From Actinomycetaceae bacterium (lineage in GTDB: Bacteria > Actinomycetota > Actinomycetes > Actinomycetales > Actinomycetaceae): a stretch of 64,000 nt of DNA. A program made the translations under genes and the position numbers. This document shows, piece by piece, positions 6,007 to 37,313 of the stretch; the stretch's first letter is position 1; each line of letters starts with the position of its first letter. Where the stretch lies: contig JAUNLF010000002.1 in NCBI GenBank assembly GCA_030532405.1, positions 186,001-250,000 on the forward strand, written 5' to 3'. Below the pieces are notes generated by a model that did no database searches, was not told where the DNA came from, and worked only from the letters and a program-made list of their open reading frames with translations.

Positions 6007-6043
6007 AAAACCGGCCGGTAGCGTCCCAAGGACGACCGGCCGG
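6007..6043 (-). terminator. terminator of the minus-strand hydrolase gene
   Basis: A 9-bp perfect stem CCGGCCGGT/ACCGGCCGG encloses an inner complementary pair (CGTCC/GGACG). On the minus strand it is followed by TTTTGTGTT. It starts 14 bases after the stop of the gene at 6058. Confidence 0.85.
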
Positions 6044-6057
6044 CTGTCAGCTTACGC

Positions 6058-6945: not shown

Positions 6946-7042
6946 GTTTTCGTCCTCAAAAATGTTTGAAGTGTGAGACAGATAGTGGACGGTCCGTGGA
7001 TCGGTAGGTACCTTTTACACACCATCAACGAAGAAGGTCCAA

Positions 7043-8446
7043 ATGCTCCAGCAAACTTTTGAAAGCATTTCATCGGTCCTGTGGGGACCGTTTGTGCTCA
7101 TTCCGCTACTACTGGGAACGGGTCTGTACCTGACGATCCGTCTGGGTGGCCTGCAGTTCAAGATGCTAGTTCCCGCCATGAAACTTGCGTTCGTCAAGCG
7201 TTCCGACAGTGGGCTCGCAGCCGATTTGGAGGGCGATATCTCGCACTACCAGGCCCTCACGACAGCGCTCGCGGCAACTGTTGGCGTGGGTAACATCGCC
7301 GGAGTGGCAACCGCTATCCACATTGGCGGGCCGGGCGCGGTTTTCTGGATGTGGGTCACGGGCCTTGTCGGCATGGCTTCGAAATACGCTGAAGCGTTCA
7401 TGGGGTCGCGCTACCGCACGAAAGACGCCAACGGTGACATTTCGGGCGGCCCGCAGTACTACCTTGAACACGCTCCGAAGAACAAAACATTCGGCAAGGT
7501 TCTCGCGATCTCGTTCGCTATCTTCGCGACCCTCGCGTCGTTCGGTATTGGCAACATGACGCAGTCGAACGCGGTTGCAGGCCAGTTGCAGTCCTCGTTC
7601 GGCTGGGACCCAACCCTGGTCGGCCTGATCATGGCCGTGGGTGTGGGCGCGGTGCTGATTGGCGGCATCAAGTCGATCGGTCGCGTAACCGCGGCGTTCG
7701 TTCCGTTCATGATCATCCTGTACGTCGGCGGTGCGCTGATCATCCTCGCACTGCACGCGAGTGCAATCCCGGGTGCGCTCGCCCTCATCATCACGGACGC
7801 GTTCACGGGCACGGCGGCAACGGGCGGATTCGTAGGGTCCGTGTTCCTAATCGCACTGCAATACGGTGTGGCCAGGGGTATTTTCTCTAACGAATCCGGC
7901 ATGGGTTCCGCGGCAATCGCGGCGGCGGCCGCGAAGACTCGCCACCCGGTGCGTCAGGGCCTGGTCTCTATGACTCAAACGTTCATTGACACGATCATCG
8001 TCGTAACCATGACGGCTCTGGTCATCGTCGTAACCGACGCTTGGCAGACCGGCATCGACGGGGCGCCCCTAACCGCGGAAGCGTTCTCGATCGGCTTCCC
8101 CGGAACGCAAGGCCACTTCATCGTGGCGGTGTCCGTCGTGTTCTTCGCGTTCTCCACGGTCCTGGGGTGGGCGTACTACGGTGAGCGCTCCACCGAGCGC
8201 CTAGTCGGCGTGAAGGGCGTCAAGTTCTACCGCTTCGCCTTCACGATCGTCGTGTTCATCGGCGCTATCACCGAGCTGAAAGCCGTGTGGGCGTTCTCCG
8301 ACATGATGAACGCATTAATGGCGATTCCAAACCTAATCGGCCTGCTACTCGCGTCCGGCCTGATCGTGCGTGAAACGAAGGCGTACCTAGAGAAGGATCC
8401 CGACCTTACCAACGCGCAAGACTTCCTCGCTCCCGATTGGAAGTAA
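7043..8446 (+). CDS. sodium:amino-acid symporter, AGCS family
   Basis: The 467-residue integral membrane protein belongs to the alanine or glycine:cation symporter family, which imports small neutral amino acids with sodium. Family signatures seen are LGGLQFKML near 33, ALTTALAATVGVGNIAGVATAI at about 72-92 (split here: the core is VGVGNIAGVA), GPGAVFWMWV, GGPQYYLE near 136, IFSNESGMGSA near 277 and TVLGWAYYGERS near 372. About ten or eleven hydrophobic segments can be picked out. The ATG start follows a GAAGAAGG stretch. It is monocistronic and ends at a GC-rich hairpin shared with the convergent aminotransferase gene. Confidence 0.93.
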   Translation: MLQQTFESISSVLWGPFVLIPLLLGTGLYLTIRLGGLQFKMLVPAMKLAFVKRSDSGLAADLEGDISHYQALTTALAATVGVGNIAGVATAIHIGGPGAVFWMWVTGLVGMASKYAEAFMGSRYRTKDANGDISGGPQYYLEHAPKNKTFGKVLAISFAIFATLASFGIGNMTQSNAVAGQLQSSFGWDPTLVGLIMAVGVGAVLIGGIKSIGRVTAAFVPFMIILYVGGALIILALHASAIPGALALIITDAFTGTAATGGFVGSVFLIALQYGVARGIFSNESGMGSAAIAAAAAKTRHPVRQGLVSMTQTFIDTIIVVTMTALVIVVTDAWQTGIDGAPLTAEAFSIGFPGTQGHFIVAVSVVFFAFSTVLGWAYYGERSTERLVGVKGVKFYRFAFTIVVFIGAITELKAVWAFSDMMNALMAIPNLIGLLLASGLIVRETKAYLEKDPDLTNAQDFLAPDWK

Positions 8447-8452
8447 GCAGAA

Positions 8453-8482
8453 GGGGGCGGCCGGAAAACTCCGGCCGCCCCC
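8453..8482. terminator. bidirectional hairpin between symporter and aminotransferase genes
   Basis: A 12-bp perfect stem GGGGGCGGCCGG/CCGGCCGCCCCC with a 6-base loop sits in the 53-base gap between two convergent stop codons. T-runs are poor on both sides, so termination efficiency is uncertain. Confidence 0.75.
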
Positions 8483-8499
8483 ACTTGCAACTACGGAAG

Positions 8500-9708
8500 C
8501 TAATTTGCTCCGTTGATCAGTTTCTTAACGCGGTTCATGCCCTCAATCAGGTCCTCATCGGACAGGGCGTAAGAGAATCGCAGGTAGCCCGGGCTGCCAA
8601 ACGCCTCACCGGGAACAGCGGCGACCTCGGCCTCGTTCAAAATAACTTCGGCAAGATCCGCAGAAGAATTGATTTGCACGCCGGCGACCTGCGTGCCGAT
8701 TAGCCCCTCCACGGATGCGAACACGTAGAACGCGCCCTGCGGGGTCGGAACGGTGAACCCGTTGATCTCGGAGGCGATCTCTACCATCTTGCGGCGGCGA
8801 CGGTCGAACGCCTCGCGCATCTCGAACACGGCATCCAAGTTGCCAGACACCGCGGCCAGCGCCGCCTTTTGAGCCACGTTGCACACGTTCGAAGTCAGGT
8901 GCGACTGGAAGTTCGCGGCCGCGCTAATCACGTCGGCGGGGCCAATCATCCAACCCACGCGCCAACCCGTCATCGCGTACGTCTTAGCGACACCGTTCAT
9001 CACGATCGTCTGGTTTTGCAGTTCGGGAACCAGCTTCGCAATGTGGACGGTCTCCACATCGTCGTACAGCAGGTGCTCGTAAATCTCGTCGGTCAGCACC
9101 CAAATGCCGTGCTCCAGCGCCCACTGTCCAATAGCCGTGGCTTCTTCGGGAGTGTAAACAGCGCCCGTCGGGTTCGAGGGCGAACAGAACAGCAACGCCT
9201 TCGTCTTATCGGTACGGGCGGCCTCAAGCTGGTCGACGGTGACCTTGTAACCCTGATCGGTGCCCGCGAACACTTCGACAGTCGTTCCGCCAGCCAGTGC
9301 GATGGCCTCGGGGTAGCTCGTCCAGTACGGAGCGGGAAGCAGAACCTCATCACCGGGGTCAACAACGGCTGCGAACGCTTGGAAAACAGCTTGCTTTCCG
9401 CCGTTAGTTACCAAAATCTGGGTGTTGGGATCGACCTCGTACCCCGAATCGCGAAGCGTCTTTTCAGCGATCGCCTTGCGAAGTTCGGGCAGGCCCTTGT
9501 TAGCCGTGTACTTGTGCATCGCCGGATCGTTAGCGGCAGCCACAGCGGCTTCCACAACGTAGTCCGGGGTGGGGAAGTCGGGCTCGCCCGCACCAAAACC
9601 AATAACGGGACGGCCGGCGGCCTTCATTTCTTTCGCGCGATTAGAAACGGCGAGGGTAGCGGAGGGCGCGATGGCGCCTAAACGTTTTGAAACTCTGTTA
9701 GTACTCAC
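8500..9708 (-). CDS. PLP-dependent aminotransferase (aspartate aminotransferase, class I-beta type)
   Basis: The 402-residue enzyme is predicted to move the amino group between aspartate and 2-oxoglutarate with pyridoxal phosphate in the cytoplasm. Visible are [12 protein letters not shown] at about 38-49, [10 protein letters not shown] at 176-185, LTDEIYEHL with the PLP-ring Asp207, the Schiff-base Lys242 in [16 protein letters not shown], and the carboxylate-binding Arg in YLRFSYA near the C-terminus. The pattern fits the Thermus-type AspAT subgroup common in Actinobacteria; prephenate or other activity cannot be excluded. The GTG start at 9708 is preceded by AGGGG almost adjacent to it, so translation initiation is unusual. 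Confidence 0.9.
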
Positions 9709-9812
9709 CCCCTAAGCTTTACAAAAGTTGCGCCTTAGAGCACGGGTATTCTTTATTTTGGAACGCAAATCCGGCGTCGAAGGGTCGCGAAGATAACAAA
9801 ATGGGGGGCCGG

Positions 9813-9843
9813 TTGGACTTAGACGGCGTGCTACGGTTAAACT
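9813..9843 (+). promoter_or_regulatory. probable promoter for tRNA-Trp and secE
   Basis: TTGGAC (9813-9818) and TTAAACT (9837-9843) are separated by 18 bases. They lie about 45 bases before the tRNA, in the gap between the divergent aminotransferase gene and the tRNA. The same TTAAAC -10 form occurs before the L10 leader. Confidence 0.4.
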
Positions 9844-9886
9844 CATTGACGCACACGTTTGGGACACTGATTCCAAAAGGGTGCGA

Positions 9887-9959
9887 AGGGCAGTGGCGCA
9901 ATTGGTAGCGCACCGGTCTCCAAAACCGGCGGTTGTGGGTTCGAGTCCCGCCTGCCCTG
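9887..9959 (+). tRNA. tRNA-Trp (anticodon CCA)
   Basis: A 73-base cloverleaf: acceptor AGGGCAG/CTGCCCT (9887-9893 and 9952-9958), discriminator G, D arm with TTGGTAGC, anticodon stem CCGGT/ACCGG around the loop CTCCAAA with CCA at 9920-9922, and T arm GTGGGTTCGAGTCCCGC. The 3' CCA is not encoded. It sits 36 bases before secE, the usual actinobacterial arrangement, and may be processed from a shared transcript. Confidence 0.98.
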
Positions 9960-9995
9960 CTCCGTGTAGGTAAGACCAGGAAGGGCTGAAGGAAG

Positions 9996-10241
9996 ATGGC
10001 AAACCAGCCTTCAACATCGCCTTCGAGCAACGAGAACGTCCATGATGATCTCAACATCTTCGGGCGTATCGTGCTTTTCGTCCGCCAGGTTATCGCCGAG
10101 CTTAAGAAGGTCGTGTGGCCCGGTAAAGAAGAGTGGTGGACCTACTTCCTAGTCGTCCTAGTCTTCGTGGGCGCGATCATGGCGTTCACCGGCCTGCTTG
10201 ATCTGGCGTTCGGCCAGCTGAGCGTCTGGATTTTTGGATAG
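9996..10241 (+). CDS. secE: preprotein translocase subunit SecE
   Basis: SecE is the small membrane subunit that clamps SecY in the SecYEG channel. The 81-residue protein has the conserved amphipathic stretch FVRQVIAELKKVVWPGKEE at about 28-46 and one transmembrane helix at about 49-72, the short single-helix form usual in Gram-positives. The ATG follows a GAAGGAAG site. It lies directly after tRNA-Trp and before nusG, from which a strong terminator separates it. Confidence 0.96.
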   Translation: MANQPSTSPSSNENVHDDLNIFGRIVLFVRQVIAELKKVVWPGKEEWWTYFLVVLVFVGAIMAFTGLLDLAFGQLSVWIFG

Positions 10242-10279
10242 TAAAACTCCAGTTTTTGCAGTAAACTAAACCCGTATTC

Positions 10280-10317
10280 AACACACCCGAGGTCACCGAC
10301 CAGGGTGTGTTACTTTT
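10280..10317 (+). terminator. terminator between secE and nusG
   Basis: The stem AACACACCC/GGGTGTGTT (9 bp) with a 14-base loop is followed by ACTTTTT. It would end the tRNA-Trp/secE transcript or attenuate read-through into nusG. Confidence 0.85.
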
Positions 10318-10366
10318 TATCGCCCGTATTTGAAACGCCGTATCGCGCGTTTGAGGAGGTCCGCAA

Positions 10367-11098
10367 GTGGATCAAGAAAATATTGACGAGGTCGTACCTG
10401 CCGAAGACTCGGCAGAGGACACCGCGGCTGCTGAAGACACGGCCCAGGATGCCGCGCCCGCGGAGGAGCCGGCAGAGGCCGCAACGCCCGAGGTTGTCGA
10501 CCCGATTGAAGAAAAGCGCGAAGAACTCTCCGTGCTCCCCGGTGACTGGTATGTCATCCACTCCTACTCCGGCCACGAGCGCCGCGTGAAGGCCAACCTC
10601 GAGCAGCGCATCCAGTCGCAAAACGCTGAGGACTGGATCTACCAGGTTGAGGTCCCCATGGAGACCGTTACCGAACTAACCAAGGGCGGCAAGAAGAAGC
10701 AGGTAGACCGTGTTCGTATTCCGGGCTACGTCCTCGTACGCATGGAAATGAACGAAAAATCTTGGCGCGTCGTAAAGGAAACCCCGGCTGTAACTGGCTT
10801 CGTGGGTGATGCGCGCGACCCGGTCCCGCTATACCTCGACGAGGTCGTCAACATGCTCGCTCCCATGTGGCAGGCGAAGGCCGACCAGGTGGAAGCCGCT
10901 GCCGCGGTTATTACCCCGCCGGCAATCACGTTCAAGGTTGGCGAATCTGTAACGGTTACGGACGGCCCGTTCGAAAACATGCCCGCCACCGTTTCGGAGG
11001 TCATCCCCGAGCAGCGCAAGCTGACCGTGTCGATCATGATCTTCGAGCGTGAAACTCCGATCGAACTTACCTTCGATCAGGTCGAGAAAATCGACTAA
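10367..11098 (+). CDS. nusG: transcription termination/antitermination protein NusG
   Basis: NusG binds the clamp of RNA polymerase and links it to Rho or to ribosomal protein S10. The 243-residue protein has an acidic, Ala- and Glu-rich extension (about 1-58) typical of Actinobacteria, then the NGN domain starting at [38 protein letters not shown], and a C-terminal KOW domain with [21 protein letters not shown]. The GTG start has GAGGAGG 8 bases upstream. No obvious promoter was seen in the 125-base gap after secE, so read-through past the terminator may feed it. Confidence 0.97.
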
Positions 11099-25427: not shown

Positions 25428-26618
25428 GTGGCGAAGGCCAAGTTCGAGCGTACGAAACCGCACGTAAACATCGGTACCATCGGTCACGTTGACCATGGTA
25501 AGACCACCCTGACCGCGGCGATCACCAAGGTTCTGGCAGACCAGTACCCCGATCTGAACGAGTTCACCCCGTTCGACCAGGTCGACAACGCTCCTGAAGA
25601 GCGCGACCGTGGTATTACCATTAACGTTTCCCACGTTGAGTACCAGACCGACAAGCGTCACTACGCACACGTCGACGCCCCCGGTCACGCTGACTACGTT
25701 AAGAACATGATTACCGGTGCTGCCCAGATGGACGGCGCTATCCTCGTAGTCGCAGCAACCGACGGCCCGATGGCTCAGACCCGCGAGCACGTTCTGCTTG
25801 CGCGCCAGGTTGGCGTTCCGACGATCGTTGTTGCTCTTAACAAGTCCGACATGGTCGACGACGAAGAAATGCTTGAGCTGGTTGAGGAAGAGGTTCGCGA
25901 GCTTCTGTCCTCGCAGGGCTTCGATGGTGACAACACCCCGATCCACCGCGTTTCCGCTCTTAAGGCTCTTGAGGGCGAAGAAGAGTGGGTCAAGGCTGTT
26001 CAGGACCTCATGGCAACCGTTGACGAGTACGTCCCGACGCCGGAGCGCGACATGGACAAGCCGTTCCTCATGCCGATTGAGGACGTCTTCACCATTACCG
26101 GTCGTGGCACCGTTGTTACCGGCCGTGTAGAGCGTGGCAAGCTGCCGATCAACGCTGAGGTCGAGATCCTCGGTATCCGTGACCCGCAGAAGACCACCGT
26201 CACCGGTATTGAGATGTTCCACAAGTCCATGGATGAAGCATGGGCAGGCGAGAACTGTGGTCTACTTCTTCGCGGCACCAAGCGCGAGGACGTTGAGCGT
26301 GGCCAGGTCGTAGCCGTTCCCGGTTCGATCACCCCGCACACCAAGTTCAAGGGCCAGGTCTACATCCTGAAGAAGGAGGAGGGTGGCCGTCACAAGCCGT
26401 TCTTCACCAACTACCGCCCGCAGTTCTACTTCCGTACCACGGACGTAACCGGCATCATCGAGCTGCCGGAGGGCACCGACATGGTTATGCCTGGCGACAC
26501 GACTGAGATCTCCGTTGAGCTCATTCAGCCGATCGCTATGGAGGCCGGCCTCGGCTTCGCTATCCGCGAGGGTGGCCGCACCGTTGGCTCCGGTCGTGTG
26601 ACCGAGGTTCTTTCCTAA
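25428..26618 (+). CDS. tuf: elongation factor Tu
   Basis: EF-Tu delivers aminoacyl-tRNA to the ribosome. At 396 residues it shows [14 protein letters not shown] at about 19-32, [48 protein letters not shown], and domains 2 and 3 ending [16 protein letters not shown] start with AGGAGGA. The 141-base gap from fusA contains AT-rich sequence (TAAGCT at 25384-25389) that could be a separate promoter, as is usual for tuf. Its terminator marks the left edge of the accessory island. Confidence 0.98.
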
Positions 26619-26633: not shown

Positions 26634-26672
26634 ATAGTTTTGGCCCAGAGCAATGCTCTGGGCCAAAACTAT
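26634..26672 (+). terminator. terminator of tuf
   Basis: A 19-bp perfect inverted repeat, ATAGTTTTGGCCCAGAGCA with its complement, has a 1- to 3-base loop and a T-rich 3' arm (CAAAACTATTTC). It ends the str operon 15 bases after the tuf stop. Confidence 0.92.
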
Positions 26673-26823
26673 TTCTAAAAACTCCAAGATTGCACGGCAG
26701 ACGCTGGTGTAGTTGGCGTTATTTTTACGCGCCATTGTGGCACAAAGTTGCTTTAACGTTTTAGCTTTAACGACAACGGTTTGTTTTATTATTTCGAAAA
26801 AGACAGAAATAGATGCATTTGTC

Positions 26824-26904
26824 TTGAAAAGAGTTGTTTAAGAGTCTAGTTATTCACCCAAAGTTGGTGCTAGGGTGATTTTGTCCGGTACTAAACCGGT
26901 TCAT
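26824..26904 (+). promoter_or_regulatory. promoter region and LacI-type operator of the GH85 gene
   Basis: TTGAAA (26824-26829) and TAGTTA (26847-26852) are 17 bases apart. A second candidate pair is TTGGTG (26864-26869) and TACTAA (26889-26894). CTAAACCGGTTCAT at 26891-26904, with the palindromic core AACCGGTT, resembles the generic LacI/GalR-family operator and lies 31 bases before the start codon. The whole tuf-GH85 gap (26673-26935) is AT-rich compared with the flanks. It also contains a weaker CG-centred inverted repeat, GCTTTAACGTTTTAGC, at 26750-26765. Confidence 0.45.
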
Positions 26905-26935
26905 TAACACCTAGCTAAAAGCAAAGGAGCTTTGA

Positions 26936-29900
26936 GTGACTTTAAGTAAAGGTGCACGCGCGAAGCGCTGGGGTTCCGTCGCGATTACGGGGCTTGCTAT
27001 TACAGCCTTAGCAACTCCACTTGCATTTGGTGCTGACTCTTATCCGCCACAAGGTGACGCTAGTGTCAAAGCATCACAACCGGTCGTGTCGGGTTACCGT
27101 GTCCAAAATATTCGAGACTGGTCCCCGGAATCTGATCCGTACGCAGAGCAACTACGTGCAACTGTTCCGTTGCAAGAACGTAATGAAGCGAATCCGCAGA
27201 CGCAGGTCAAACCTGAGCTTGATGGCAAGGCAGAAATCATGCTCATGCAGGGCGACTACGGTAACTCGTTCTTTGGGTCGACGACTCATAACAATACGTT
27301 TGGCGAGTTGGCGTTCAACTTCTGGCAGTACGCCGACTACTGGTCACCCTGGCACGGAGCTGCCTCGGTTGGCGTTCCGCAGGCAATCTACGATCCCCAA
27401 AACTCTGATTGGCGAAATCGTGGTTTCGAGTTCGGCGTGATGACACTACCAACACGTGAGTATACAAATGCTGCTCACCGTAACGGCGTGAAATCTATTG
27501 CTGTACTGTATTTTGACCCCTACTTCCGTCCAGGACTGACCTACAAGGAGCTCTTTGAAAAGGATGCGGACGGCAATTACGTGGTGGCCGACAAACTGGT
27601 CGAGATGGCTAACTATTACGGCTTTGACGGCTATTTCTTGAATGAGGAAGAAGGCGGCCCGGCCCGCGAAGAGTTCAAACCATTTATGGCATACCTGACG
27701 TCGAAGGGGCTTTATACACAGTGGTATGACACAAACTCCTATATGGATGCCCGAAAGGCTCAGTGGCTTAGTGATGAGCAGTACGGCAAAATCCATGACT
27801 CGGTATTCGTAAACTACGGAAATAATGGTTCGCAAATGCACGAGTGGTCAGTGCAGAACGGATATGACCCTTACGCGCAGGTATTTGCAGGTATCGAAGC
27901 AAACCAAACAGGATTCGCCGGTGATGGGGGAGTATCCAGGGGGTTCGCCTCGGCAGAGAATCACTCGCCGCTGACTTCTATCGCCCTCTTTACGCCATCA
28001 GATCATTATCAGCGCGAACTTGACGGAAAGATTGAGGGGCTAACAGGGAGGGTCGATAAAACTAAGCCTTTCATGCAGCAGCAGCCGTATCAGTGGATGA
28101 TCGCTGATCGTGAGCGCATGTATTTCTCCGGTGCCTATTCCGATGTGACAAAGACAGGCCCCGAAAATACGCAGACTCGACCCGAAATCGCTGTAGACGA
28201 GGAGGGTTGGATTGGTGTAGCAGACTTTGTTCCCGCACGGTCTGTAATTGATGGGACCGAATTCGCAACTGATTTCTCAACGGGAAAGGGGATGAGGTCG
28301 TACACCAATGGTGGCATCACCAATGACTCAGAGTGGATTGACCTTGGTGCACAATCAATCCTGCCGTCTTGGCAGTGGTGGATAAGCACAGAGTCTGGCG
28401 ACACTACGTTGGAGGCTGACTTCGACTACGGGCCGGAACCACGCGTGGACATTTATGGCAACGAAATCTCTACACCGTTCGAGCCAGTGGGTGCATACAA
28501 TGGGGGTAACTCGTTGGTTTTGCACGGCGACATCTCCGAGCCTCACGACCTGCGTCTATTTAAGACTGATCTTGCGATCGCTGAAGATTCCAAAGCAAAA
28601 GTAACCTTGCGCGCAGCCGCTAACGGAAACTTGAGTCTCAAGCTCGGCCTCGTATTCAAAGACGATGCTGAACAGACCGTAGCAGTTGATCTTCCAGAAG
28701 TCACGAGCGAATGGACTACTGCGGAAATTGATCTATCGGAGTTCGCGGGCAAGCAGATCGCAACAATCGGTTTGATAATCGATGGACAAGCCACGGGGGC
28801 GCAGGTCAATATCGGCGAACTATCGGTAGGAAGGGCATCCACTAATGCTCCGGCGACTCCCACAGGACTGAACGTTCGCGAATTAAATACCGACGGATCG
28901 GCGACCGTAGCGTGGGATATTGGCGAGTTTGAACAGGTCGACTACTACGTGCTGGAAGCCATCGGAAATGATGGTCAAGTACGCCATCTGGGCAAGACGT
29001 TTGGTGACGTTCATTATGTGAAGGACGTGGGGCTTGATGGTGACTACTTCTTGTCGGTTCGCGCTATTGGTAAGTCTGGTTTGTCTTCGGAGCCGGCGAT
29101 GGTTTTCGTAGGTTCAAGCGCGTTGCCAACCGATCTCGAAATAAATGAGGCTATGGATGAAAACGAACACTTTGCGGAAGCAGTCAACGCCGGTGAAGTT
29201 GAGGTGTCCTGGCAGTCTCCCGCAAGTGGTGCAGATGGGTACACAGTGCGCATGGAGACCTTGTACGCAGATGCGGTAAGTCCATTCCATGGTTACACAC
29301 AGCGCCACGTCGGGGCTGACACCACATCTGTTACGTTACCGGCACCACTTGAAGGCATGAAGTTCCGTGTAACTGTTACGCCGGATGGGTATGACTCGAG
29401 TGCTGTGGCAGCCAAGTCAGTGGTTGGCCGTTACCACGACGCATACTCTGCGCCACTTGAGATGCGAGACGTTAGTTTGCTTGGGGGTGCGAGCTTCCAA
29501 CTGAACAATCCCACATCTAATGACTGGCAACAAATAGTGTCCGCTGGTGATGAGGAATGGACAGCGACTCGCGGTAAGAGTAACCGCTCCTCGTGGGGGC
29601 AAAGTGATGAGAACGGTAGTCTCACGAAGCGGCGCACGGTTGAATCGCAGATCGAGTACGTTATCCGTGACTACGCGGGCAATGTTTCGCAGGGTCTTGC
29701 TGTCAAGAACGATGATGGTGAAGCGCAACTTGTAGACTCCGCGGCTCCGCAAGTGTGGGGCACGCCCTGGGGAGTTCAGGATGTTGCAGCTGGCAAAGAA
29801 ATGGTTCCGGTGGAAATCACAGCTGTTGACAATACGTCCGATGTGACTGTAGCTGTCGGCTTTGTTGAGGCGTCACAAGCTGTGGATGAGGAAGGTGATT

Positions 29901-30430
29901 CTGCAGAGGTTATGACAGACCTGGCCGACGGTATCACGTTCGATGCGCAGACCCTTACCATCAGTGGAACGCCTACCTGGGAGGGGGAACGGATCCTACG
30001 GGTTATAGCGATGGATGAGTCATCGAATAAGGAAACTTTCGACTTCACGGTGAGGGCGCACGGTGTGCCCGAAGGATCCCCGGATCCGGAAGAACCTGGT
30101 ACGACGGAAACCACGGATCCCGAAAAGCCTGGTACGACGGAAACCACGGATCCCGAAAAGCCGGAAACATCTGATGATCCGACCGAACCCGAGGAGCCTG
30201 TTATTCCTGAGGAGCCGACTGCTCCTGAGGAATCTACCCAACCGTCGGTATCGGTTGATCCTGGGCAGAGCGGAATGACCGATCCGTCGCAATTGGGTGA
30301 TAATCAGAAGCCTAACAAGCAGGGGTTAGCGCAGACAGGTGTGCAGGTGGCTGCTTTGGCTGTGCTCGGCATAGGATTGGGGGCTCTAGGAATTTCGGCT
30401 GTGACTATTAGTCGTAGGAAGCGCATGTAG
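26936..30430 (+). CDS. surface-anchored endo-beta-N-acetylglucosaminidase, GH85
   Basis: GH85 enzymes cut the chitobiose core of N-linked glycans, leaving one GlcNAc on the protein. The 1164-residue protein has a signal peptide (Lys/Arg N-terminus, hydrophobic 14-31, likely cut near AFG-AD). The catalytic block FDGYFLNEEE at 230-239 has the substrate-assisting Asn236 and acid/base Glu238 expected for the family, with HGAASVGVPQAIYDP and VKSIAVLYFDPYF upstream. A beta-sandwich-like region follows, then a fibronectin-III-like domain (about 638-735), further Ig-like segments, a Pro/Thr/Glu stalk (about 1042-1125), LAQTG at 1131-1135, a hydrophobic helix and RRKRM. The LAxTG form suggests class E sortase anchoring. 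GTG start with AAGGAGC. The exact glycan is not known from sequence. Confidence 0.9.
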   Translation: MTLSKGARAKRWGSVAITGLAITALATPLAFGADSYPPQGDASVKASQPVVSGYRVQNIRDWSPESDPYAEQLRATVPLQERNEANPQTQVKPELDGKAEIMLMQGDYGNSFFGSTTHNNTFGELAFNFWQYADYWSPWHGAASVGVPQAIYDPQNSDWRNRGFEFGVMTLPTREYTNAAHRNGVKSIAVLYFDPYFRPGLTYKELFEKDADGNYVVADKLVEMANYYGFDGYFLNEEEGGPAREEFKPFMAYLTSKGLYTQWYDTNSYMDARKAQWLSDEQYGKIHDSVFVNYGNNGSQMHEWSVQNGYDPYAQVFAGIEANQTGFAGDGGVSRGFASAENHSPLTSIALFTPSDHYQRELDGKIEGLTGRVDKTKPFMQQQPYQWMIADRERMYFSGAYSDVTKTGPENTQTRPEIAVDEEGWIGVADFVPARSVIDGTEFATDFSTGKGMRSYTNGGITNDSEWIDLGAQSILPSWQWWISTESGDTTLEADFDYGPEPRVDIYGNEISTPFEPVGAYNGGNSLVLHGDISEPHDLRLFKTDLAIAEDSKAKVTLRAAANGNLSLKLGLVFKDDAEQTVAVDLPEVTSEWTTAEIDLSEFAGKQIATIGLIIDGQATGAQVNIGELSVGRASTNAPATPTGLNVRELNTDGSATVAWDIGEFEQVDYYVLEAIGNDGQVRHLGKTFGDVHYVKDVGLDGDYFLSVRAIGKSGLSSEPAMVFVGSSALPTDLEINEAMDENEHFAEAVNAGEVEVSWQSPASGADGYTVRMETLYADAVSPFHGYTQRHVGADTTSVTLPAPLEGMKFRVTVTPDGYDSSAVAAKSVVGRYHDAYSAPLEMRDVSLLGGASFQLNNPTSNDWQQIVSAGDEEWTATRGKSNRSSWGQSDENGSLTKRRTVESQIEYVIRDYAGNVSQGLAVKNDDGEAQLVDSAAPQVWGTPWGVQDVAAGKEMVPVEITAVDNTSDVTVAVGFVEASQAVDEEGDSAEVMTDLADGITFDAQTLTISGTPTWEGERILRVIAMDESSNKETFDFTVRAHGVPEGSPDPEEPGTTETTDPEKPGTTETTDPEKPETSDDPTEPEEPVIPEEPTAPEESTQPSVSVDPGQSGMTDPSQLGDNQKPNKQGLAQTGVQVAALAVLGIGLGALGISAVTISRRKRM
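30095..30160. repeat. 33-bp tandem repeat in the stalk of the GH85 protein
   Basis: Two exact 33-bp units (30095-30127, 30128-30160) encode an 11-residue Pro-Gly-Thr-Thr-Glu-Thr-Thr-Asp-Pro-Glu-Lys repeat, in frame. This is a wall-spanning linker whose length may vary between strains. Confidence 0.9.
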
Positions 30431-30441
30431 TCAGGTAAATC

Positions 30442-30495
30442 AAATAGCCCCGAGAAGCAAGACCAGAATTAGTCGTTAACTTCCCGGGGCTATTT
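30442..30495. terminator. bidirectional terminator between the GH85 and importer genes
   Basis: AAATAGCCCCG(A)GAAG at 30442-30457 pairs with CTTC(C)CGGGGCTATTT at 30480-30495, with one mismatch and a 22-base loop. A- and T-runs flank the stem on both strands, so it can serve both convergent genes. Confidence 0.8.
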
Positions 30496-30519
30496 CAATT
30501 TCGCAATGAAGTTGGTGTT

Positions 30520-31848
30520 CTACTCCATGAAACCGTTTTGCTTTGCGTAGGATTCAAGGTCGGTTTGCCATGTAGCTAGTGCGTCTTCGACGGTGGTAGT
30601 CCCTGCAAAAGCTCCCGCGATCTTGTCTCCGTAAATCGTGTTAGCGTACGGCTGGAATGGTAGGTAGCTCCATCCGGGTAGAACATCTGCCGCAGCCTGC
30701 GCCAGAACCTTGTTGTACTCCTGGCCGCCAAAGTACTCGTCGGTGTATGTCAGGAAGTCCTCATCTGTGAGCATTTCGTTGGTTGAAGGGAAGTTTCCGT
30801 TTTCCACACGGATCTTCGCCCCGTCTCCAACACTCATGAACTCCAAGAATTTGTAGGCAGCATCCTTCTTGTCCGAGGCACTCATAATAGCGAGTGAAGA
30901 TCCACCGTTTTCTGAGTTAGCTGTTTCTCCTGCCGTGGGCACTGGGGCCGGAGCAACTCGGAAGTCACCAGATGCTTCGGGTGCCGAACCAATTAGGTTC
31001 GCCGGCATCCACGCACCCGTGATCAAGCTTGCAATAGTTCCGTCGCCAAGGCCACGGAACCAGTCGTCTGACCAACCTGAAACAGTCTTGTTCAGAAGGT
31101 CCTCATCGATCATCTTTTGCCAGAAGTCTGCATAGGTCATAACTCCTTCGTCAGCGAGGTCGATCTTTACCTGGCCGTCCTCGACGGAGAACGGTTGACC
31201 GCCCGCTAGCCACATCATCGAGGTAGCCATACCAGCGTCACCATTGTCAGAAGTGATGTAGTAGTCGTCTCCCAGTGCACGAATCTTCTTTGCCGCTTCG
31301 TAGTACTCGTCCCAAGTTGCAGGTGGGGTGTCTACTCCGGCTTGCTTGAATACAGCTTCGTTATAGAACAAAGCCATTGGCCCCGAATCCATGGGAAGAG
31401 CGTATACCTGACCGCTATCGGACAATGTCACCGAGTTCCACGTGCCGGGCGTGTATTGATCCTTCAAGTCGGCTGCGCCCATCTGGGACAGGTCAGCAAG
31501 ATGACCGGGGATAGCGTACTGGGCGAGCGCGTAGTATTCTACTTGCGCAATATCGGGCACTCCCGAGCCTGCTGCAAGAACGTTGTCGATCTTTGTGTAG
31601 GTGTCAGCGGCACCGCCAACATTTTGGAGATCTACCTTGATATCCGGGTAGGCTTTCTCAAATTCTTCAACCACCGGTGTCAGGGTGGGCTCCCAGGCCC
31701 ACAGCGTAAGGGTTACTTCTTCGCTTCCGGATGACGCGCCTGCTCCCTGAGTTGTGTCTGTTGTATTTTCTGCATTCCCACCGCAGGCGGCTAGAGTTAG
31801 TGCCATAACAGCGGTGCAAGCCGTTACGGCAAGGGGCTTAATCCTCAT
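30520..31848 (-). CDS. carbohydrate ABC transporter substrate-binding lipoprotein
   Basis: The 442-residue extracytoplasmic binding protein captures a sugar for the importer. It has a lipoprotein signal with lipobox LTLAACGG (Cys22), a Thr/Ser/Gly linker, then the family-1 solute-binding fold: LTLWAWEPTLTPVVEEFEKAYP near 47-68, PDIAQVEYYALAQYA, YALPMDSGPMALFYNEAVFKQAG and a TGAWMPANLIG segment. Family-1 proteins bind oligosaccharides. The ligand here is inferred to be a host-type glycan or galactoside because of the GH35 and GH85 neighbours. It is the last gene of the GH35-permease-permease operon, 72 bases after the permease. Confidence 0.92.
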   Translation of the reverse strand: MRIKPLAVTACTAVMALTLAACGGNAENTTDTTQGAGASSGSEEVTLTLWAWEPTLTPVVEEFEKAYPDIKVDLQNVGGAADTYTKIDNVLAAGSGVPDIAQVEYYALAQYAIPGHLADLSQMGAADLKDQYTPGTWNSVTLSDSGQVYALPMDSGPMALFYNEAVFKQAGVDTPPATWDEYYEAAKKIRALGDDYYITSDNGDAGMATSMMWLAGGQPFSVEDGQVKIDLADEGVMTYADFWQKMIDEDLLNKTVSGWSDDWFRGLGDGTIASLITGAWMPANLIGSAPEASGDFRVAPAPVPTAGETANSENGGSSLAIMSASDKKDAAYKFLEFMSVGDGAKIRVENGNFPSTNEMLTDEDFLTYTDEYFGGQEYNKVLAQAAADVLPGWSYLPFQPYANTIYGDKIAGAFAGTTTVEDALATWQTDLESYAKQNGFME

Positions 31849-31920
31849 GTTTGTTTCCTTTCAATTTGTTTTCGACGTTGAAAAATCAGTAATCCGTTTT
31901 GAAGATGTTCAAGGCGCTTA

Positions 31921-32832
31921 CTATTCCTTTACGCTTCCTGCAGCCAGACCGGACTGCCAGTAGCGTTGCAGGAATAGGAACGCGATACAGAGCGGAATGA
32001 TCGTTAAGAGAGACCCCGTGATAATCACGTTTTGGAGTGGCTCAACACCGCCGGCAGCGGAATAGGTTTGCAACTTGATGTCATTGAGACCCGTGGTGAG
32101 CGGTTTCCACTTTTCGGAAGTGAGCATGATCAGCGGTAAGAAGTAGTTATTCCATGTCGCGACAATAGTGAAAAGTGCAACGGTAACGATTCCGGGCGCA
32201 AGCAGTGGAAGTGACACCTTGAAGAAGGTGTTGAGTTCACTAGATCCATCTACGCGTGCTGCTTCGATAAGCTCCATAGGCACGGCCTCTTCGGCGAATA
32301 CCCACATTAAATAGAATCCAAAGGGCGTAATGAGGCAAGGAATGATGACTGAAATTGGGGTATTCACTATTCCAACGCGACTGAACATCAGGAATAAGGG
32401 AACAGTGAGTGCAGTACTCGGTACCGCAATTGCTCCCAAGACAATGGCGACGACTGCCTTGCGACCGGGGAAGCGATACTTGGCAAGCCCATAGCCTCCT
32501 AGGACCGCGAGTAACGTTGCGCCACCAGCGCCCACGACCACGTAGAGCAGAGTATTTAGGAACCAGCGTACGAATATACCGTCCCTGTATTCGAGTGTTT
32601 GTTTGATGTTGTCGAAAAGCGCGAATGAGTCACCAAACGCAAAGCCAAACGTGGTTATATAGTCCGCCTGTGTTTTAGTGGAGTTGATGACGAGCCACAC
32701 TAAAGGCATGAGTGCGTAGATCGCAATTAGTGCGACGATGACCGTGAGAACAATGGACTTTCGTGGTCTCGTTGGACTGTATCCTTTAGTCCTCCGGCGT
32801 CTTGGAGTGGCAAGGTTGGTCGGCGTGCTCAT
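31921..32832 (-). CDS. carbohydrate ABC transporter permease (MalG type)
   Basis: The 303-residue membrane protein is the second permease of a CUT1-type sugar importer. It has a short basic N-terminus, six hydrophobic segments and the ATPase-docking EAA loop EAARVDGSSELNTFFKVSLP. The ATG at 32832 is preferred over one eight codons upstream, because GAGGAGG lies 6 bases before it and the ATGA overlap with the preceding stop is typical of coupled permeases. No ATP-binding subunit is encoded in the window, so a shared MsiK-like ATPase elsewhere is likely. Confidence 0.93.
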   Translation of the reverse strand: MSTPTNLATPRRRRTKGYSPTRPRKSIVLTVIVALIAIYALMPLVWLVINSTKTQADYITTFGFAFGDSFALFDNIKQTLEYRDGIFVRWFLNTLLYVVVGAGGATLLAVLGGYGLAKYRFPGRKAVVAIVLGAIAVPSTALTVPLFLMFSRVGIVNTPISVIIPCLITPFGFYLMWVFAEEAVPMELIEAARVDGSSELNTFFKVSLPLLAPGIVTVALFTIVATWNNYFLPLIMLTSEKWKPLTTGLNDIKLQTYSAAGGVEPLQNVIITGSLLTIIPLCIAFLFLQRYWQSGLAAGSVKE

Positions 32833-33758
32833 TTTTGGCCTCCTCGAGCTCCCCACAACTGCACGACGTAAGCCACAACCACGGTTATTAGTCCCATAAC
32901 GATTGCGAGAGTTGCCGAGTAGTTCGGGCTATGCGCTTCAAAAGCTAGGTGGAATGCGTAGAAGTTTGGTGTGAAGTACGTAGTAATCACGTTGTTCGAC
33001 ATCTGTTGCATTACGTTGGGCTCGTTGAATAGTTGGAATGAACCGATAATCGAGAAAATCACCGTGATCATGAGTGAACCGCGCAATGCAGGTAGCTTGA
33101 TTGCCCGTACGATGTCGAACTCGTTTGCGCCATCGATAATGGCTGCCTCATACAGCGATTCGGGTATCGTCTTCAGCGTTGAGTACAAGATCAACATGTT
33201 GTAGCCGATATAACACCAGGTAACAATATTTCCGATACCCACCCAAATCAGGTCATGGGTGAAGAAATCAATTGAGGTACCAAAAGTAGTGTTGAGAGAA
33301 CCGACTACGCCGTAGCGAGTTCCGTATAAGAACCCCCACATTAGAGTTGCGACCACAGCGGGGATGGCGTACGGAAGGAAAACGGAGATTCGAAAGAATT
33401 TCGCTCCCCACAGTCGACCGGAGTCAAGTGCAAGGGCTAGAAACAAAGATATTCCTAGCATGATAGGTACCTGGATCAGAAGGAAAAGTCCTACACCTCT
33501 GACGCCGCTCCAAAAGTTGGGATCTTGGAACAACGTAATGTAGTTTTCAAAACCTATGAACTGTTCGCCTTGCGACTTGCCCCATACCATCTTTGGCTCG
33601 AAGAATGACAGGTAGATCGCGTACAGGAGCGGGGCGATGAAAACTATGGTGAAGAAGAACATGAAGGGACCAACGAAAATCCAACCCCTCCAGTCCCGCT
33701 TCGGTCGTCGTAGTGTTATCTTCGCCGGAGAGAATGGTGTAACAGTATCGCTCATCAT
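32829..33758 (-). CDS. carbohydrate ABC transporter permease (MalF type)
   Basis: The 309-residue inner-membrane protein is the first permease of the importer. It has a basic N-terminus, six hydrophobic segments beginning with GWIFVGPFMFFFTIVFIAPL, and the EAA loop EAAIIDGANEFDIVRAIKLP, which contacts the ATPase. It starts 5 bases after the GH35 stop and its TGA overlaps the next ATG by 4 bases, so the genes form one operon. A doubled ATG leaves the start one codon uncertain. Confidence 0.93.
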   Translation of the reverse strand: MMSDTVTPFSPAKITLRRPKRDWRGWIFVGPFMFFFTIVFIAPLLYAIYLSFFEPKMVWGKSQGEQFIGFENYITLFQDPNFWSGVRGVGLFLLIQVPIMLGISLFLALALDSGRLWGAKFFRISVFLPYAIPAVVATLMWGFLYGTRYGVVGSLNTTFGTSIDFFTHDLIWVGIGNIVTWCYIGYNMLILYSTLKTIPESLYEAAIIDGANEFDIVRAIKLPALRGSLMITVIFSIIGSFQLFNEPNVMQQMSNNVITTYFTPNFYAFHLAFEAHSPNYSATLAIVMGLITVVVAYVVQLWGARGGQK

Positions 33759-33763
33759 TTGAC

Positions 33764-35503
33764 CTACGCTTCCGTATGGCCGAGTAGCGGTTTAGGAAGC
33801 AACGAAATCGAGGGTGCAGTAACTGCTTCTAGTTCCCAAATCATTATTGAGTTGTGGTTCGCCTTGATTAGTGGTCCGGGAATATAAAGCGTGTCGGTCG
33901 GTCCAGCTGCCCAGTAGCGTCCGAGCAAGAAACCGTTACACCAAGCAATACCGGTGGTTAGGTTACGCGTGTCTAGATGGAGGTCTCTGCCTTCATCAGC
34001 ATTGAACGTTGCCGTTGCAATAATTGGGCCAGATTGGGGGCTGGCAAGCTTTTGAGGATCCGTTGCATTTAGGCTACTCATCAGGTCGAGGTCTACGGTC
34101 GACACTTTCCAGTCGAAAATGTCACGGGTTGCGGTGTGGCATGGACCGATTAGTCCCTTTTCTTCCCCAATTCTTTTGTCGTAATTGACGCGACCAAGAT
34201 CTTCAGCAATTACGGTTAGTCTGCCTTTACGGCGGGGAATGGTTAAGGCACGTTGGCGGTGAAGCCTGTTGATAGATCCAATAGATTCCCCATCCAGGAA
34301 GAAGTACGCTCTGTCGCGCACGTCTTCAAAAATAAGGACCTGGTCTTCTTCATTGACTTCGGTCTCGTAAATCATGAATTTTGCAGTTGGTGAAACTTCA
34401 TCGATGCTCGGAAGACGCTTGTACATGGTTCCCTCAGTGAGGGACATCTTCCAGTCTGGGCCTACAAACAGCGGTAAGTCGCTAACGGCAGTTCCGTGCA
34501 CGGGGTTGTTTGCTTGAGCAACGGCGGTGCCGAGATTACTGGAGATAGCTTGTTGAAATAGATTGTATTTTTCGGTCGTTGTGCCATCCTCAGCTAACGG
34601 TGCGTCATAGTCATATGAGGTGGTGATTGGACTGTACGTGCCCTTGTGGTTAGCCCCATTCATCAAACCGAAGTTCGTGCCGCCGTGGAACATGTAGAGA
34701 TTTACAGATGCGCCCATACCGAGTAGCTGGGCGAAATCTTCTGCTTGCTCTTCTGGATCCGTCACATGATGGTGCTGCCCCCAACTGTCGAACCATCCGT
34801 TCCAGTACTCCATACACATTAGTGGCCCGTTAGGTTGGAAGCGACGAAGTACACCTAAACGCTCAGGGCTGTGTGACCCGAAGGTGGCGGTGGTTAACAG
34901 CTCGGGCAACGATCCGCGCTCGAGCATGGCCTCGTTTGCTTGATCGCAGGTGCACAGTGGCACATCGATGCCTTCCGCCCTTATTTGATCCGCTAGCGCG
35001 CGTAGGTATTCCTTGTCCTCTCCAAATGCCCCGTATTCATTTTCAACTTGAACCATGATTACGTTGCCACCGTGACTGACCTGCCGGGACTGAACGATGG
35101 GGAGGACGTTTTTGAAGTACTCCTTGGTTGCCGCAAGGTAACGTGGGTCGCTAGTACGCAGCTTAATTCCACTCGCAGTTAGCCAAGATGGAAGGCCTGC
35201 ATTATCCCATTCTGCGCAGATATAGGGGCCGGGGCGCACGATAGCCTTTAGACCACGCTCAGCTGCAAGATCCAGGAACGCGCCAAGGTCTCGCCATCCG
35301 TCCAAGCGGAACTCGCCAGGTTTGCTCGAGTGAAAGTTCCAAGCTACATAGGTCTCGATCGTGTTCAAACCTAACGCTACCGCCTGGTCCAGGCGGTGGG
35401 CCCACTGGCTTGGATGCACGCGGAAATAGTGTAAGGCCCCGGAGATAATCTGCGTAGGCTGACCGTCGAGTATGAATCCGTCATCGGAGATTGCGAAGCT
35501 CAC
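33764..35503 (-). CDS. beta-galactosidase, GH35, cytoplasmic
   Basis: The 579-residue enzyme removes terminal beta-galactose. GH35 signatures: ISGALHYFRVHPSQWAHRL near 20-38, NTIETYVAWNFHS, RPGPYICAEWDNAGLPSWL near 90-108, the acid/base Glu156 in VQVENEYGAFG, and the nucleophile Glu232 in CMEYWNGWFDSWG. There is no signal peptide, so it acts inside the cell on imported sugars, unlike the secreted GH35 enzymes. Family members of this compact type prefer beta-1,3- or beta-1,4-galactosides of glycan antennae; specificity cannot be read here. The GTG start at 35503 has AAGGAG 8 bases upstream. It is the first gene of the importer operon, directly behind the operator. Confidence 0.95.
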   Translation of the reverse strand: MSFAISDDGFILDGQPTQIISGALHYFRVHPSQWAHRLDQAVALGLNTIETYVAWNFHSSKPGEFRLDGWRDLGAFLDLAAERGLKAIVRPGPYICAEWDNAGLPSWLTASGIKLRTSDPRYLAATKEYFKNVLPIVQSRQVSHGGNVIMVQVENEYGAFGEDKEYLRALADQIRAEGIDVPLCTCDQANEAMLERGSLPELLTTATFGSHSPERLGVLRRFQPNGPLMCMEYWNGWFDSWGQHHHVTDPEEQAEDFAQLLGMGASVNLYMFHGGTNFGLMNGANHKGTYSPITTSYDYDAPLAEDGTTTEKYNLFQQAISSNLGTAVAQANNPVHGTAVSDLPLFVGPDWKMSLTEGTMYKRLPSIDEVSPTAKFMIYETEVNEEDQVLIFEDVRDRAYFFLDGESIGSINRLHRQRALTIPRRKGRLTVIAEDLGRVNYDKRIGEEKGLIGPCHTATRDIFDWKVSTVDLDLMSSLNATDPQKLASPQSGPIIATATFNADEGRDLHLDTRNLTTGIAWCNGFLLGRYWAAGPTDTLYIPGPLIKANHNSIMIWELEAVTAPSISLLPKPLLGHTEA

Positions 35504-35524
35504 CTAGACTCCTTCGTCGTAGGA

Positions 35525-35569
35525 ATGTTTACGTAAACATAATAAACTCCTATTTTTTCAATTTGTCAA
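35525..35569 (-). promoter_or_regulatory. promoter and palindromic LacI operator of the GH35-importer operon
   Basis: On the minus strand, TTGACA (35569-35564) is followed after 19 bases by TATTAT (35544-35539). Immediately downstream is the perfect 16-bp palindrome ATGTTTACGTAAACAT (35525-35540), centred on CG as in LacI-family operators. It overlaps the -10 box and expected start point, so a bound repressor would block initiation. The site is 32 bases from the GH35 start codon's far side and about 60 bases from the regulator promoter, so it may also control lacI. Confidence 0.8.
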
Positions 35570-35600
35570 TAATCGCAAAGGAAATTTGGTTAATATCAGT

Positions 35601-35627
35601 TTGGTAACGATCACAATGGGGTATGAT
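35601..35627 (+). promoter_or_regulatory. promoter of the LacI-family gene (leaderless)
   Basis: TTGGTA (35601-35606) and TATGAT (35622-35627) are 15 bases apart, a little short. The ATG at 35635 begins 8 bases after the -10 box, where transcription itself should start, so the mRNA is probably leaderless. Confidence 0.5.
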
Positions 35628-35634
35628 CGCTAGC

Positions 35635-36672
35635 ATGAGTAACAATGCGCGACAGGGATTTCGTTCAAAAGGCGGCGTGTCAATTGCGGACGTGGCGCGG
35701 CTGGCAGGCGTGTCGTCGCAGACTGTTTCGCGAGTGTCGAATGGGTCGGACCAAGTCAGGCCTGAGACTCGCGATAAAGTTATAGAGGCTATGCGGATGC
35801 TTGGATACTCGCCGAATATTGCTGCCCGCGCATTGCGGCAAGGGGAGTTTAAGGCTATTGGTGTTCTTGGGAATCGTTTTGACCGCACGGGGGAATCGTT
35901 AACGACTAGCGCACTAATCGCAGCGGCAACGGCGCAGGATTATGCGGTTACTATCGTCACGGTTCAAGAAAACAAGCTTGGCGACTGGGATCATGCCGCG
36001 ATTAGACTCTCTAGCCAGGCAATTGACGGGCTGGTCATCCTTCGAGCTGAGCATACGCCCGAGCAGTTCGCGCTACCTGCCGGTTTTCCGGTTGCGGTTG
36101 CTGACTCTCGGTTGGCGGGCTTGTATCCAGCTGTGACACTGAATCATGAGCAAGGAAGTGTTGCTGCAACTAAGCACCTACTGGGACTGGGGCACCGCCA
36201 GGTGCATCACCTTGCTGGTTTAAAGGGGTCGGATCCTTCTGTAGCGCGTTTGCTACCTTGGCAACGCGTGTTGGAGCAAAACGGAATTCGCCCGCCGGAG
36301 CCCTTCTATGGTGATTGGTCTGCGCAATCAGGTTACGAAATAGGGAAGAAGATTGCGCAAAGGGGAGATGTTACTGCCCTTTATTGCGCCAATGACGAGA
36401 TGGCGATGGGGGTGCTCCATGCGTTCCATGAAGCCGGTCTAAGAGTTCCTGAAGATATATCCGTGGTTGGGTTTGATGATCTTTCGTTGAGCGCGCATCT
36501 ACCTGTTCCGCTTACAACAGTGAGGCAGGATTATCAGATGATTGGGAAGCACTTGTTTGACTTGGTGAAAGAGCAACTGGAAAAGGGTCGGGATGCTGTT
36601 GCGCGTCGTCGCGTCGTCGTGCCCACGCAATTAATCGTCCGCTCCACAACTGCAGCTCCGCGATTTAACTGA
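35635..36672 (+). CDS. LacI-family transcriptional regulator of the glycan operon
   Basis: The 345-residue repressor has the N-terminal helix-turn-helix SIADVARLAGVSSQTVSRV at 16-34, the hinge-helix region YSPNIAARALRQG, and a periplasmic-binding-like sensor domain containing LGHRQVHHLAG, ALYCANDEMAMGVL and ISVVGFDDLSLS. It is expected to bind the palindrome in the divergent GH35 promoter and release it when a sugar, probably galactose-containing, is present. ATG 35635 is chosen because the -10 box ends 7 bases before it; the ATG at 35623 lies inside that box. Its A/T-richer codons differ from the ribosomal genes on either side. Confidence 0.9.
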   Translation: MSNNARQGFRSKGGVSIADVARLAGVSSQTVSRVSNGSDQVRPETRDKVIEAMRMLGYSPNIAARALRQGEFKAIGVLGNRFDRTGESLTTSALIAAATAQDYAVTIVTVQENKLGDWDHAAIRLSSQAIDGLVILRAEHTPEQFALPAGFPVAVADSRLAGLYPAVTLNHEQGSVAATKHLLGLGHRQVHHLAGLKGSDPSVARLLPWQRVLEQNGIRPPEPFYGDWSAQSGYEIGKKIAQRGDVTALYCANDEMAMGVLHAFHEAGLRVPEDISVVGFDDLSLSAHLPVPLTTVRQDYQMIGKHLFDLVKEQLEKGRDAVARRRVVVPTQLIVRSTTAAPRFN

Positions 36673-37004
36673 CAGGAATCTGGGCCCTGGGATCGATTAC
36701 TGCCAGTTCCCGGCCTTGGTTTATGAGAACCGCAACACTAATTCATGATTCGTTTGGAATCCGCGGCCTGATATGTAAAACTATTTGAGTTGCCTCAGAC
36801 AGGAAGCAACCGCGGAATGTCTGAGAAATCGTACAGCCCACCCATCCGGGTGTGTGCTGAGGGGTGTATGCCCCACGTTCTTGATCACAAGAAAAACGGT
36901 CCACTTCCCGCCAGAAGGGAAGTACCGCGCTTCAGTTTGTTGCAAATAGCGACACGCCCGAGTGCGGGGACCGGTGAGAAGCTGTTTAAGAGAGGTAAGA
37001 CGGC
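36673..37004 (+). promoter_or_regulatory. promoter and leader of the S10 operon
   Basis: This 332-base gap has no gene. TTGGAA (36754-36759) and TAAAAC (36776-36781), 16 bases apart, form a probable promoter. The following leader of about 215 bases contains small hairpins such as GGGGTGTATGCCCC near 36860 and ACTTCCC/GGGAAGT (36903-36923). A regulatory role for these is possible but unproven. The rpsJ ribosome binding site AGAGAGGTAAG lies at the end. Confidence 0.45.
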
Positions 37005-37313
37005 ATGGCGGGACAAAAGATCCGCATCCGGCTCAAGTCCTATGACCACGAGGTCATTGACAGCTCCGCGCGCAAGATCGTCGACACTGTGCAGCGCGCA
37101 GGTGCGACGGTCGTGGGCCCGGTGCCGCTGCCGACCGAGAAGAACGTATTCGTTGTCGTTCGGTCGCCCCACAAGTACAAGGACAGCCGCGAACACTTTG
37201 AAATGCGCACTCACAAGCGCCTGATTGACATCATCGACCCGACGCCGAAGGCTGTCGATTCGCTCATGCGACTCGACCTCCCGGCAGACGTAAAAATCGA
37301 TATTAAACTCTGA
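37005..37313 (+). CDS. rpsJ: 30S ribosomal protein S10
   Basis: S10 is a 30S head protein and also the NusG/NusE antitermination partner. The 102-residue protein has [19 protein letters not shown], the [39 protein letters not shown] region (seen in two blocks) and the C-terminal [11 protein letters not shown]. The length is standard. It is the first gene of the S10 operon and restarts the ribosomal cluster after the 10-kb island. Confidence 0.98.

Follow-up and report, generated by a model that had tools for sequence, protein, structure and literature searches.

Why would a bacterium carry some 10 kb of sugar-utilization genes between tuf and rpsJ, and do those genes serve one substrate or two? 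The case arises in a 64,000-nucleotide stretch of an Actinomycetaceae genome (the window, to which plain coordinates refer; GenBank assembly GCA_030532405.1, contig JAUNLF010000002.1, positions 186,001 to 250,000), where positions 26936..36672 encode a GH85 endo-beta-N-acetylglucosaminidase, a solute-binding protein (SBP), two ATP-binding cassette (ABC) permeases, a GH35 beta-galactosidase and a LacI-family regulator. A first-pass annotation had joined them into a single system for the capture, import and trimming of N-glycans. We think it very likely that the gap instead holds two independent sugar systems, both of known type, with GH85 belonging to an N-glycan regulon whose other genes lie elsewhere and standing beside a separate beta-galactoside operon. 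This reading is built on gene content, co-occurrence among genomes and the positions of motifs, from which enzyme activities, ligands and regulation are predicted.

Gene arrangement

Open reading frames and Pfam families agree with the first-pass description of the segment, so that its gene content, family assignments and position between tuf and rpsJ stand. GH85 (26936..30430, plus strand) encodes 1164 amino acids with a signal segment and a C-terminal LAQTG sorting-type signal. The other enzyme and the transporter form a minus-strand operon that runs from 35503 down to 30520 in the order GH35 (33764..35503), MalF-like permease (32829..33758), MalG-like permease (31921..32856; both BPD_transp_1) and SBP lipoprotein (30520..31848; SBP_bac_1), with the LacI gene (35623..36672, plus strand) divergent from GH35. 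Between the convergent GH85 and SBP genes lies a stem-loop (30440..30505; -24.8 kcal/mol on the plus and -33.5 kcal/mol on the minus strand, a stability that none of 200 shuffles reached for either strand) that is likely a bidirectional terminator. Because GH85 and the ABC/GH35 operon converge on this strong stem-loop, they do not form one transcription unit, and the proposal of a single unit fails on this point. We rejected a single-unit model on the separation of the modules, on this convergence across a stem-loop and on the distinct operators described below.

The predicted beta-galactoside module

Alignment to solved proteins places the SBP with the beta-galactoside binders, by far closest to Bal6GBP: it matches 6q5g at E 3.9e-129 and 6h0h at E 1.1e-128, and the next solved protein at 2.4e-38. 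The available part of a review identifies 6H0H as Bal6GBP, gives a dissociation constant of 92 nM for beta-1,6-galactobiose, with the 1,3 and 1,4 isomers bound 300- and 1630-fold more weakly, and links Trp63 (Arg49 in GL-BP) with galactose at position 2 (PMC8106489). Both tryptophans of the SBP's WAW stretch that align to Bal6GBP are kept (W50 and W52), and one of them would correspond to Trp63. Bifidobacterium longum has three Bal6GBP homologues with 51-74% identity, and loss of the 51% one impaired growth on lactulose, as far as the accessible text of that study describes it (PMC8110962). The beta-galactosidase partner here is not GH42, as in B. animalis, but GH35; by eye it has no obvious signal segment and is probably intracellular. 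Its best solved matches are 4mad and 4e8c, which we take to be beta-1,3-galactosidases. The ligand of the operon could thus be either a beta-1,6- or a beta-1,3-linked galactoside, and its source plant, milk-type or host. An SBP for unrelated galactosides was the outcome that the first-pass annotation had named as speaking against its own proposal, and a Bal6GBP-type protein is what the sequence predicts.

The module recurs elsewhere without GH85. We took as the family set 151 genomes (G000-G150), treated as identical across the GH85, SBP and GH5_18 searches. Fifteen of them have an SBP match, and setting aside five weak ones (E 1e-41 to 1e-54; G015, G034, G049, G057, G145) leaves the galactoside SBP at orthologue level in 10 of 151. 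Excluding the present genome (G000) and its sister G147, these orthologues (E 9.3e-128 or better) define nine loci in eight genomes. SBP and both permeases are present in all nine, with 60-66% identity for the MalG-like and 52-63% for the MalF-like permease, and GH35 in seven; GH85 is in none. A LacI gene (38-54% identity) adjoins permF in seven, and one more, at 48%, lies about 9.5 kb off in locus L057. Conversely, neither SBP nor GH35 stands beside GH85 at any of the 13 loci around the GH85 of the 13 other GH85-bearing family genomes, and among 56 named GH85 loci no match to this SBP or to GH35, tuf or rpsJ exceeds the score cut-offs within the available flanks, some of which are short; matches below the cut-offs are an SBP at 121 bits (L143) and a tuf at 75 bits (L114). 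SBP and GH85 also co-occur in two other genomes, at a distance of about 2.5 Mb in G007 and 0.5 Mb in G013.

It is highly improbable, in the light of these counts, that all six genes form one N-glycan unit, with galactose-capped glycans freed by GH85, taken up through the local ABC transporter and stripped of galactose by GH35. Adjacency speaks for such a unit, and the GH35 matches to 4mad and 4e8c make a host Gal-beta1,3 substrate thinkable; but the two modules are found apart in every related locus surveyed, within the flanks available, GH85 converges with the operon across a stem-loop, the operator of the module was not found before GH85, and the genome encodes an N-glycan locus elsewhere that has an importer of its own. 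Capture, import and trimming as one process therefore fall apart: the binding protein is of galactoside type, its module occurs without GH85 in nine of nine loci, and the putative GH85 operator points to a GH38/GH5_18/ABC locus elsewhere.

GH85 and a distant N-glycan locus

The GH85 domain scores 152.7 bits against a Pfam cut-off of 22.2 and is the only GH85 match in the genome. Residues N236 and E238 align with the INQE of 3fha and are conserved at 90% or more in 14 sequences; we take this Asn-x-Glu pair to be catalytic, its role being known from Endo-A. A signal-like segment opens the protein, and at its other end LAQTG is followed by a hydrophobic stretch and RRKR, which makes wall anchoring plausible, the LAQTG-type C-terminus presumably being a sortase sorting signal. 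It is thus probably a secreted N-glycan endoglycosidase, and the first-pass assignment of this activity to the cell exterior holds as a prediction, with the catalytic Asn and Glu both kept. N-glycans are the sole substrates of characterized GH85 enzymes, according to the available part of a review (PMC10154615). In its C-terminal part, at residues 965-1065 (window 29828-30130), the protein is similar to a portion of 4m03, a serine-rich platelet adhesin of solved structure.

Where, then, are the enzymes that would act after GH85? Contig C23 opens with the genome's one GH38 match; next come genes for GH5_18, an SBP and two permease-like proteins. The GH5_18 protein has no Pfam match but aligns at E 4e-118 to an exo-beta-1,4-mannosidase of Cutibacterium acnes, 6gvb. 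An orthologous N-glycan LacI (51%) lies at the end of the window's own contig, C6 (264394-265389), and adjoins a gene of the GlcNAc (N-acetylglucosamine) 2-epimerase family. The GH38 gene is split, its start encoded by the last bases of C6 (L095) and the remainder at the start of C23 (L084), and since the GH38 query coverage of the two parts overlaps, the contigs most likely abut. The epimerase-like gene lies about 50 kb, and the LacI/GH38 operator 52.5 kb, downstream of the GH85 start. The locus is 58-77% identical to those of G032 and G081, which have GH85 nearby.

The first-pass annotation had noted no mannosidase, hexosaminidase or sialidase. That is correct for the segment but not for the genome, which has GH38 and GH5_18 as well as GH20 and sialidase-type matches, so the claimed absence is only local, and the narrow substrate deduced from the missing mannosidase loses its basis with a GH38/GH5_18 locus about 50 kb away. 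The stretches C6:39893-44992, C26:8305-9369 and C18:130626-131441 contain three GH20 matches, each at a separate place and two of them within long frames of 980 and 1443 residues, and a sialidase-type domain within a frame of 1813 residues.

GH85 and GH5_18 also occur together. GH85 occurs in 14 of the 151 family genomes, and GH5_18 is present in all 14 of these versus 19 of the 137 without GH85 (Fisher p 4e-11, in counts that ignore relatedness among genomes). In the 13 other GH85 genomes the two genes are within about 15 kb of each other in seven (G001, G007, G013, G027, G032, G043, G081) and apart in six, either at least 64 kb apart on the same contig (G078, G096, G109, G142) or on different contigs (G132, G150). 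GH38 lies within the 19-20 kb examined at 7 of the 13 loci, and GH38 with GH5_18 within the available flanks of 11 of the 56 named loci. Stop codons fall inside the matched GH5_18 stretch in G137, G027, G049 and G078.

Two predicted operators

The palindrome TGTTTACGTAAACA (35526..35539), between GH35 and LacI, is the predicted operator of the beta-galactoside LacI and has its only perfect copy in the genome there. It is perfect in G147 as well; at the nine other family loci it is perfect in four, has one mismatch in two and two mismatches in two, and is absent from one, with the stretch before permF used at L057 and L064, where the LacI-permease gap was unavailable. Upstream of GH85 its best match has mismatches at 6 of 14 bases. 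Elsewhere in the genome, positions 3414-10884 of locus L085 (contig C13) encode a LacZ-type GH2 beta-galactosidase, two open reading frames in permease position, an SBP, and a LacI that shares 44% identity with that of the window; between the SBP and LacI genes the local operator recurs with one mismatch, as TGTTTACGTAATCA.

The motif before GH85 is a different one. From the relatives, where it was found 5' of GH85 and of GH38, we derived ACTAAANCGNTTTAGT, with 14 fixed bases; it stands directly 5' of GH85 at 0-1 mismatches in 7 of the 13 loci (L068, L069, L072-L076). At two or fewer mismatches it occurs at only two places in the 2.2-Mb genome, both at the genes where it was predicted: the gap that separates LacI from GH38 (C6:265437, one mismatch) and window 26890 (two mismatches). 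The latter, ACTAAACCGGTTCATT (26890..26905), lies 31 bases 5' of the GH85 start codon and is the predicted operator of the N-glycan LacI. When about 149 kb of the genome was scored with a matrix made solely from relatives, these two sites took the top two ranks. Of 5000 Markov sequences modeled on the tuf-GH85 gap, 12 reached the score of the GH85 site. A weaker operator-like site, GCTTTAACGTTTTAGC (26750-26765), lies about 140 bases further upstream. Within the window, ACTAAANCGNTTTAGT has three matches at three mismatches, which is near chance (mean 1.43). GH85 and GH38 share a motif that we predict to be an operator, imperfect at GH85.

The relatives bear on whether such remote control would be odd. 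Where GH85 and GH5_18 are apart, the operator is kept at 0-1 mismatches in G078, G096, G109 and G142 (L072-L075), and G132 and G150 have none at two or fewer mismatches before GH85; with the motif retained in four of six, a distant GH85 under it is not peculiar to the present genome. Among the named loci, 47 of the 56 (those over 20 kb) were checked, with L112 taken slightly off position (its match starts at 9362), and the motif lies up to 700 bases upstream of GH85 in 11, all of them among the 17 loci that are actinobacterial by record title.

Could GH85 be under neither regulator, a relocated N-glycan enzyme that is constitutive or decaying, with a degenerating remnant of an operator? The two changes in the right half of its operator, a composition unlike that of the N-glycan genes and the lack of any GH85 match in the other 10 genomes of the genus would fit. 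We nevertheless hold this to be very unlikely, as the frame is full length, the catalytic residues and the sorting-type signal are kept, and the operator before GH85 is one of only two in the genome at two or fewer mismatches.

Evidence against two independent systems

Several observations weigh against the reading we favor. The operator before GH85 is imperfect, with 2 of 14 fixed bases off, and a reversed control pattern matches six places in the genome versus two for ACTAAANCGNTTTAGT, so the count is not enriched and only the positions of the two sites carry weight. Third-position guanine-plus-cytosine (GC) content is 0.54 in GH85, similar to the 0.52-0.58 of the galactoside operon, as against 0.70-0.78 in the N-glycan genes tested, and GH85 may therefore have arrived with its neighbors, which would also suit a single unit. 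Composition is not decisive as a guide to its origin; the GC content of GH85 is below local GC, by 0.003 to 0.055, in 9 of the 10 relatives measured (of 13). GH85 is also found in 3 of the 10 genomes that have the galactoside SBP (of 151; p 0.05, kinship ignored), and its absence from G147 is weakened by an assembly 91% complete in 280 contigs.

The closest GH85 proteins (60-62%), in the Trueperella-type genomes G150 and G132 (L066, L067), belong to the two genomes noted above for lacking the operator and for having GH5_18 on another contig, and they stand beside a different operon of SBP, two permeases, GH2 and LacI, a neighborhood that could be taken to favor a single unit here as well. The GH2 proteins of these loci are nearest to beta-glucuronidase and galactofuranosidase structures. 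According to the available part of one report (PMC6160142), some C. acnes strains encode a secreted GH35 of short length, at times accompanied by GH85 genes, which again suits a single unit. From such cases one can build a hybrid in which the wall-anchored GH85 and the GH35/Bal6GBP-type importer jointly serve galactose-bearing host glycan fragments, the Trueperella-type arrangement is of the same kind, and two LacI proteins act on one 10-kb segment; we consider it very unlikely. Because of the composition, the imperfect operator, the Trueperella-type neighborhood and the C. acnes enzymes, we keep a low probability for a meaningful pairing.

Insertion within the genus

The 10-kb segment, which the first-pass annotation had called inserted between tuf and rpsJ, is an insertion within the genus. 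Among 11 genus genomes, nine have an rpsJ match, and in seven of these nine the tuf-rpsJ distance is 0.4-0.9 kb. On the left, tuf (elongation factor Tu; 25428..26618, plus strand), whose position was compared among these genomes, is followed by a terminator-like hairpin (26634..26684, plus strand; -31.1 kcal/mol, z -9.1, unmatched in stability by 200 shuffles); on the right, the S10-operon leader (36673..37004, plus strand), partly common to relatives that lack the insertion, precedes rpsJ (37005..37313, plus strand).

The sister genome G147 has part of the segment: LacI (74% identity) and GH35 residues 1-316 (76%) adjoin rpsJ, and another contig has GH35 residues 316-579 (49%), the permeases (87-88%) and the SBP (81%). 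For GH35 of G147 (L056 1-791, contig C195), identity drops from 76% up to residue 316 to 49% beyond it. In this assembly, searches at 1e-20 for GH85 and at 1e-40 for GH5_18 gave no match. A search for tuf in G147, G127 and G141, made without a positive control, found nothing. The same gene set, looked for in related genomes, did not turn up: GH85 is with SBP or GH35 in none of the family loci surveyed, and beside rpsJ in G147 are LacI and the first part of GH35.

A proposed division of labor

On the two-system reading, a wall-anchored GH85 would cut N-glycans off glycoproteins outside the cell. The regulon about 50 kb downstream, with its 2-epimerase-like protein, LacI, GH38 alpha-mannosidase, GH5_18 core beta-mannosidase and own ABC importer, would do the rest: its transporter would import the released glycan, GH38 would demannosylate it, and GH5_18 would then split the product into mannose and GlcNAc, with the distant LacI controlling GH85 through the operator before its start codon. 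The SBP, the two permeases, GH35 and the local LacI would be a separate Bal6GBP-type operon for beta-galactoside import under its own operator.

Adjacency can mislead, as the mannosidases missing locally were found some 50 kb away. The analysis yields two testable operator motifs, one for the beta-galactoside LacI and one for the N-glycan LacI regulon, the second of which was seen before GH85 or GH38 in Arcanobacterium, Cutibacterium and other actinobacteria. The latter lets scattered N-glycan genes be assigned to one regulon from sequence.

Comparison with known systems

A unit of GH85, GH35 and a Bal6GBP-type protein did not appear in the open-access literature searched, judged by title and the start of the abstract. 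Each half has parallels in reports of which we draw on the accessible parts. The importer half is like that of B. animalis subsp. lactis (PMC8106489, PMC8110962): its SBP is nearest to Bal6GBP, and it combines ABC permeases with a beta-galactosidase of intracellular type. It is unlike it in that the enzyme is GH42 there and GH35 here, with a predicted ligand.

For the N-glycan half, C. acnes has a GH38/GH5_18 locus with transporter genes and a regulator (CaMan5_18, PDB 6gvb), and the pair is noted in Arcanobacterium haemolyticum (PMC6160142). The present GH38-GH5_18-SBP locus with two permease-like genes resembles it, whereas the locus of C. acnes strain 266 adds GH20 and GH18, and the available text places no GH85 there; here GH85, which is probably wall-anchored and is preceded by a matching operator, is some 50 kb distant from GH38/GH5_18. 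In Streptococcus pneumoniae EndoD (GH85), the NgtS-P1-P2 importer and the mannosidases act in concert although they are encoded at three chromosomal sites, among them a carbohydrate-processing locus (PMC5215778). The likeness is in the separate chromosomal places of GH85, ABC importer and mannosidases, with function here predicted from the genes; the difference is that S. pneumoniae has GH92 and GH125, families not searched for here, where the present genome has GH5_18. Given these two parallels and the N-glycan specificity of GH85, both systems appear to be of known kinds, and what is unusual is their placement.

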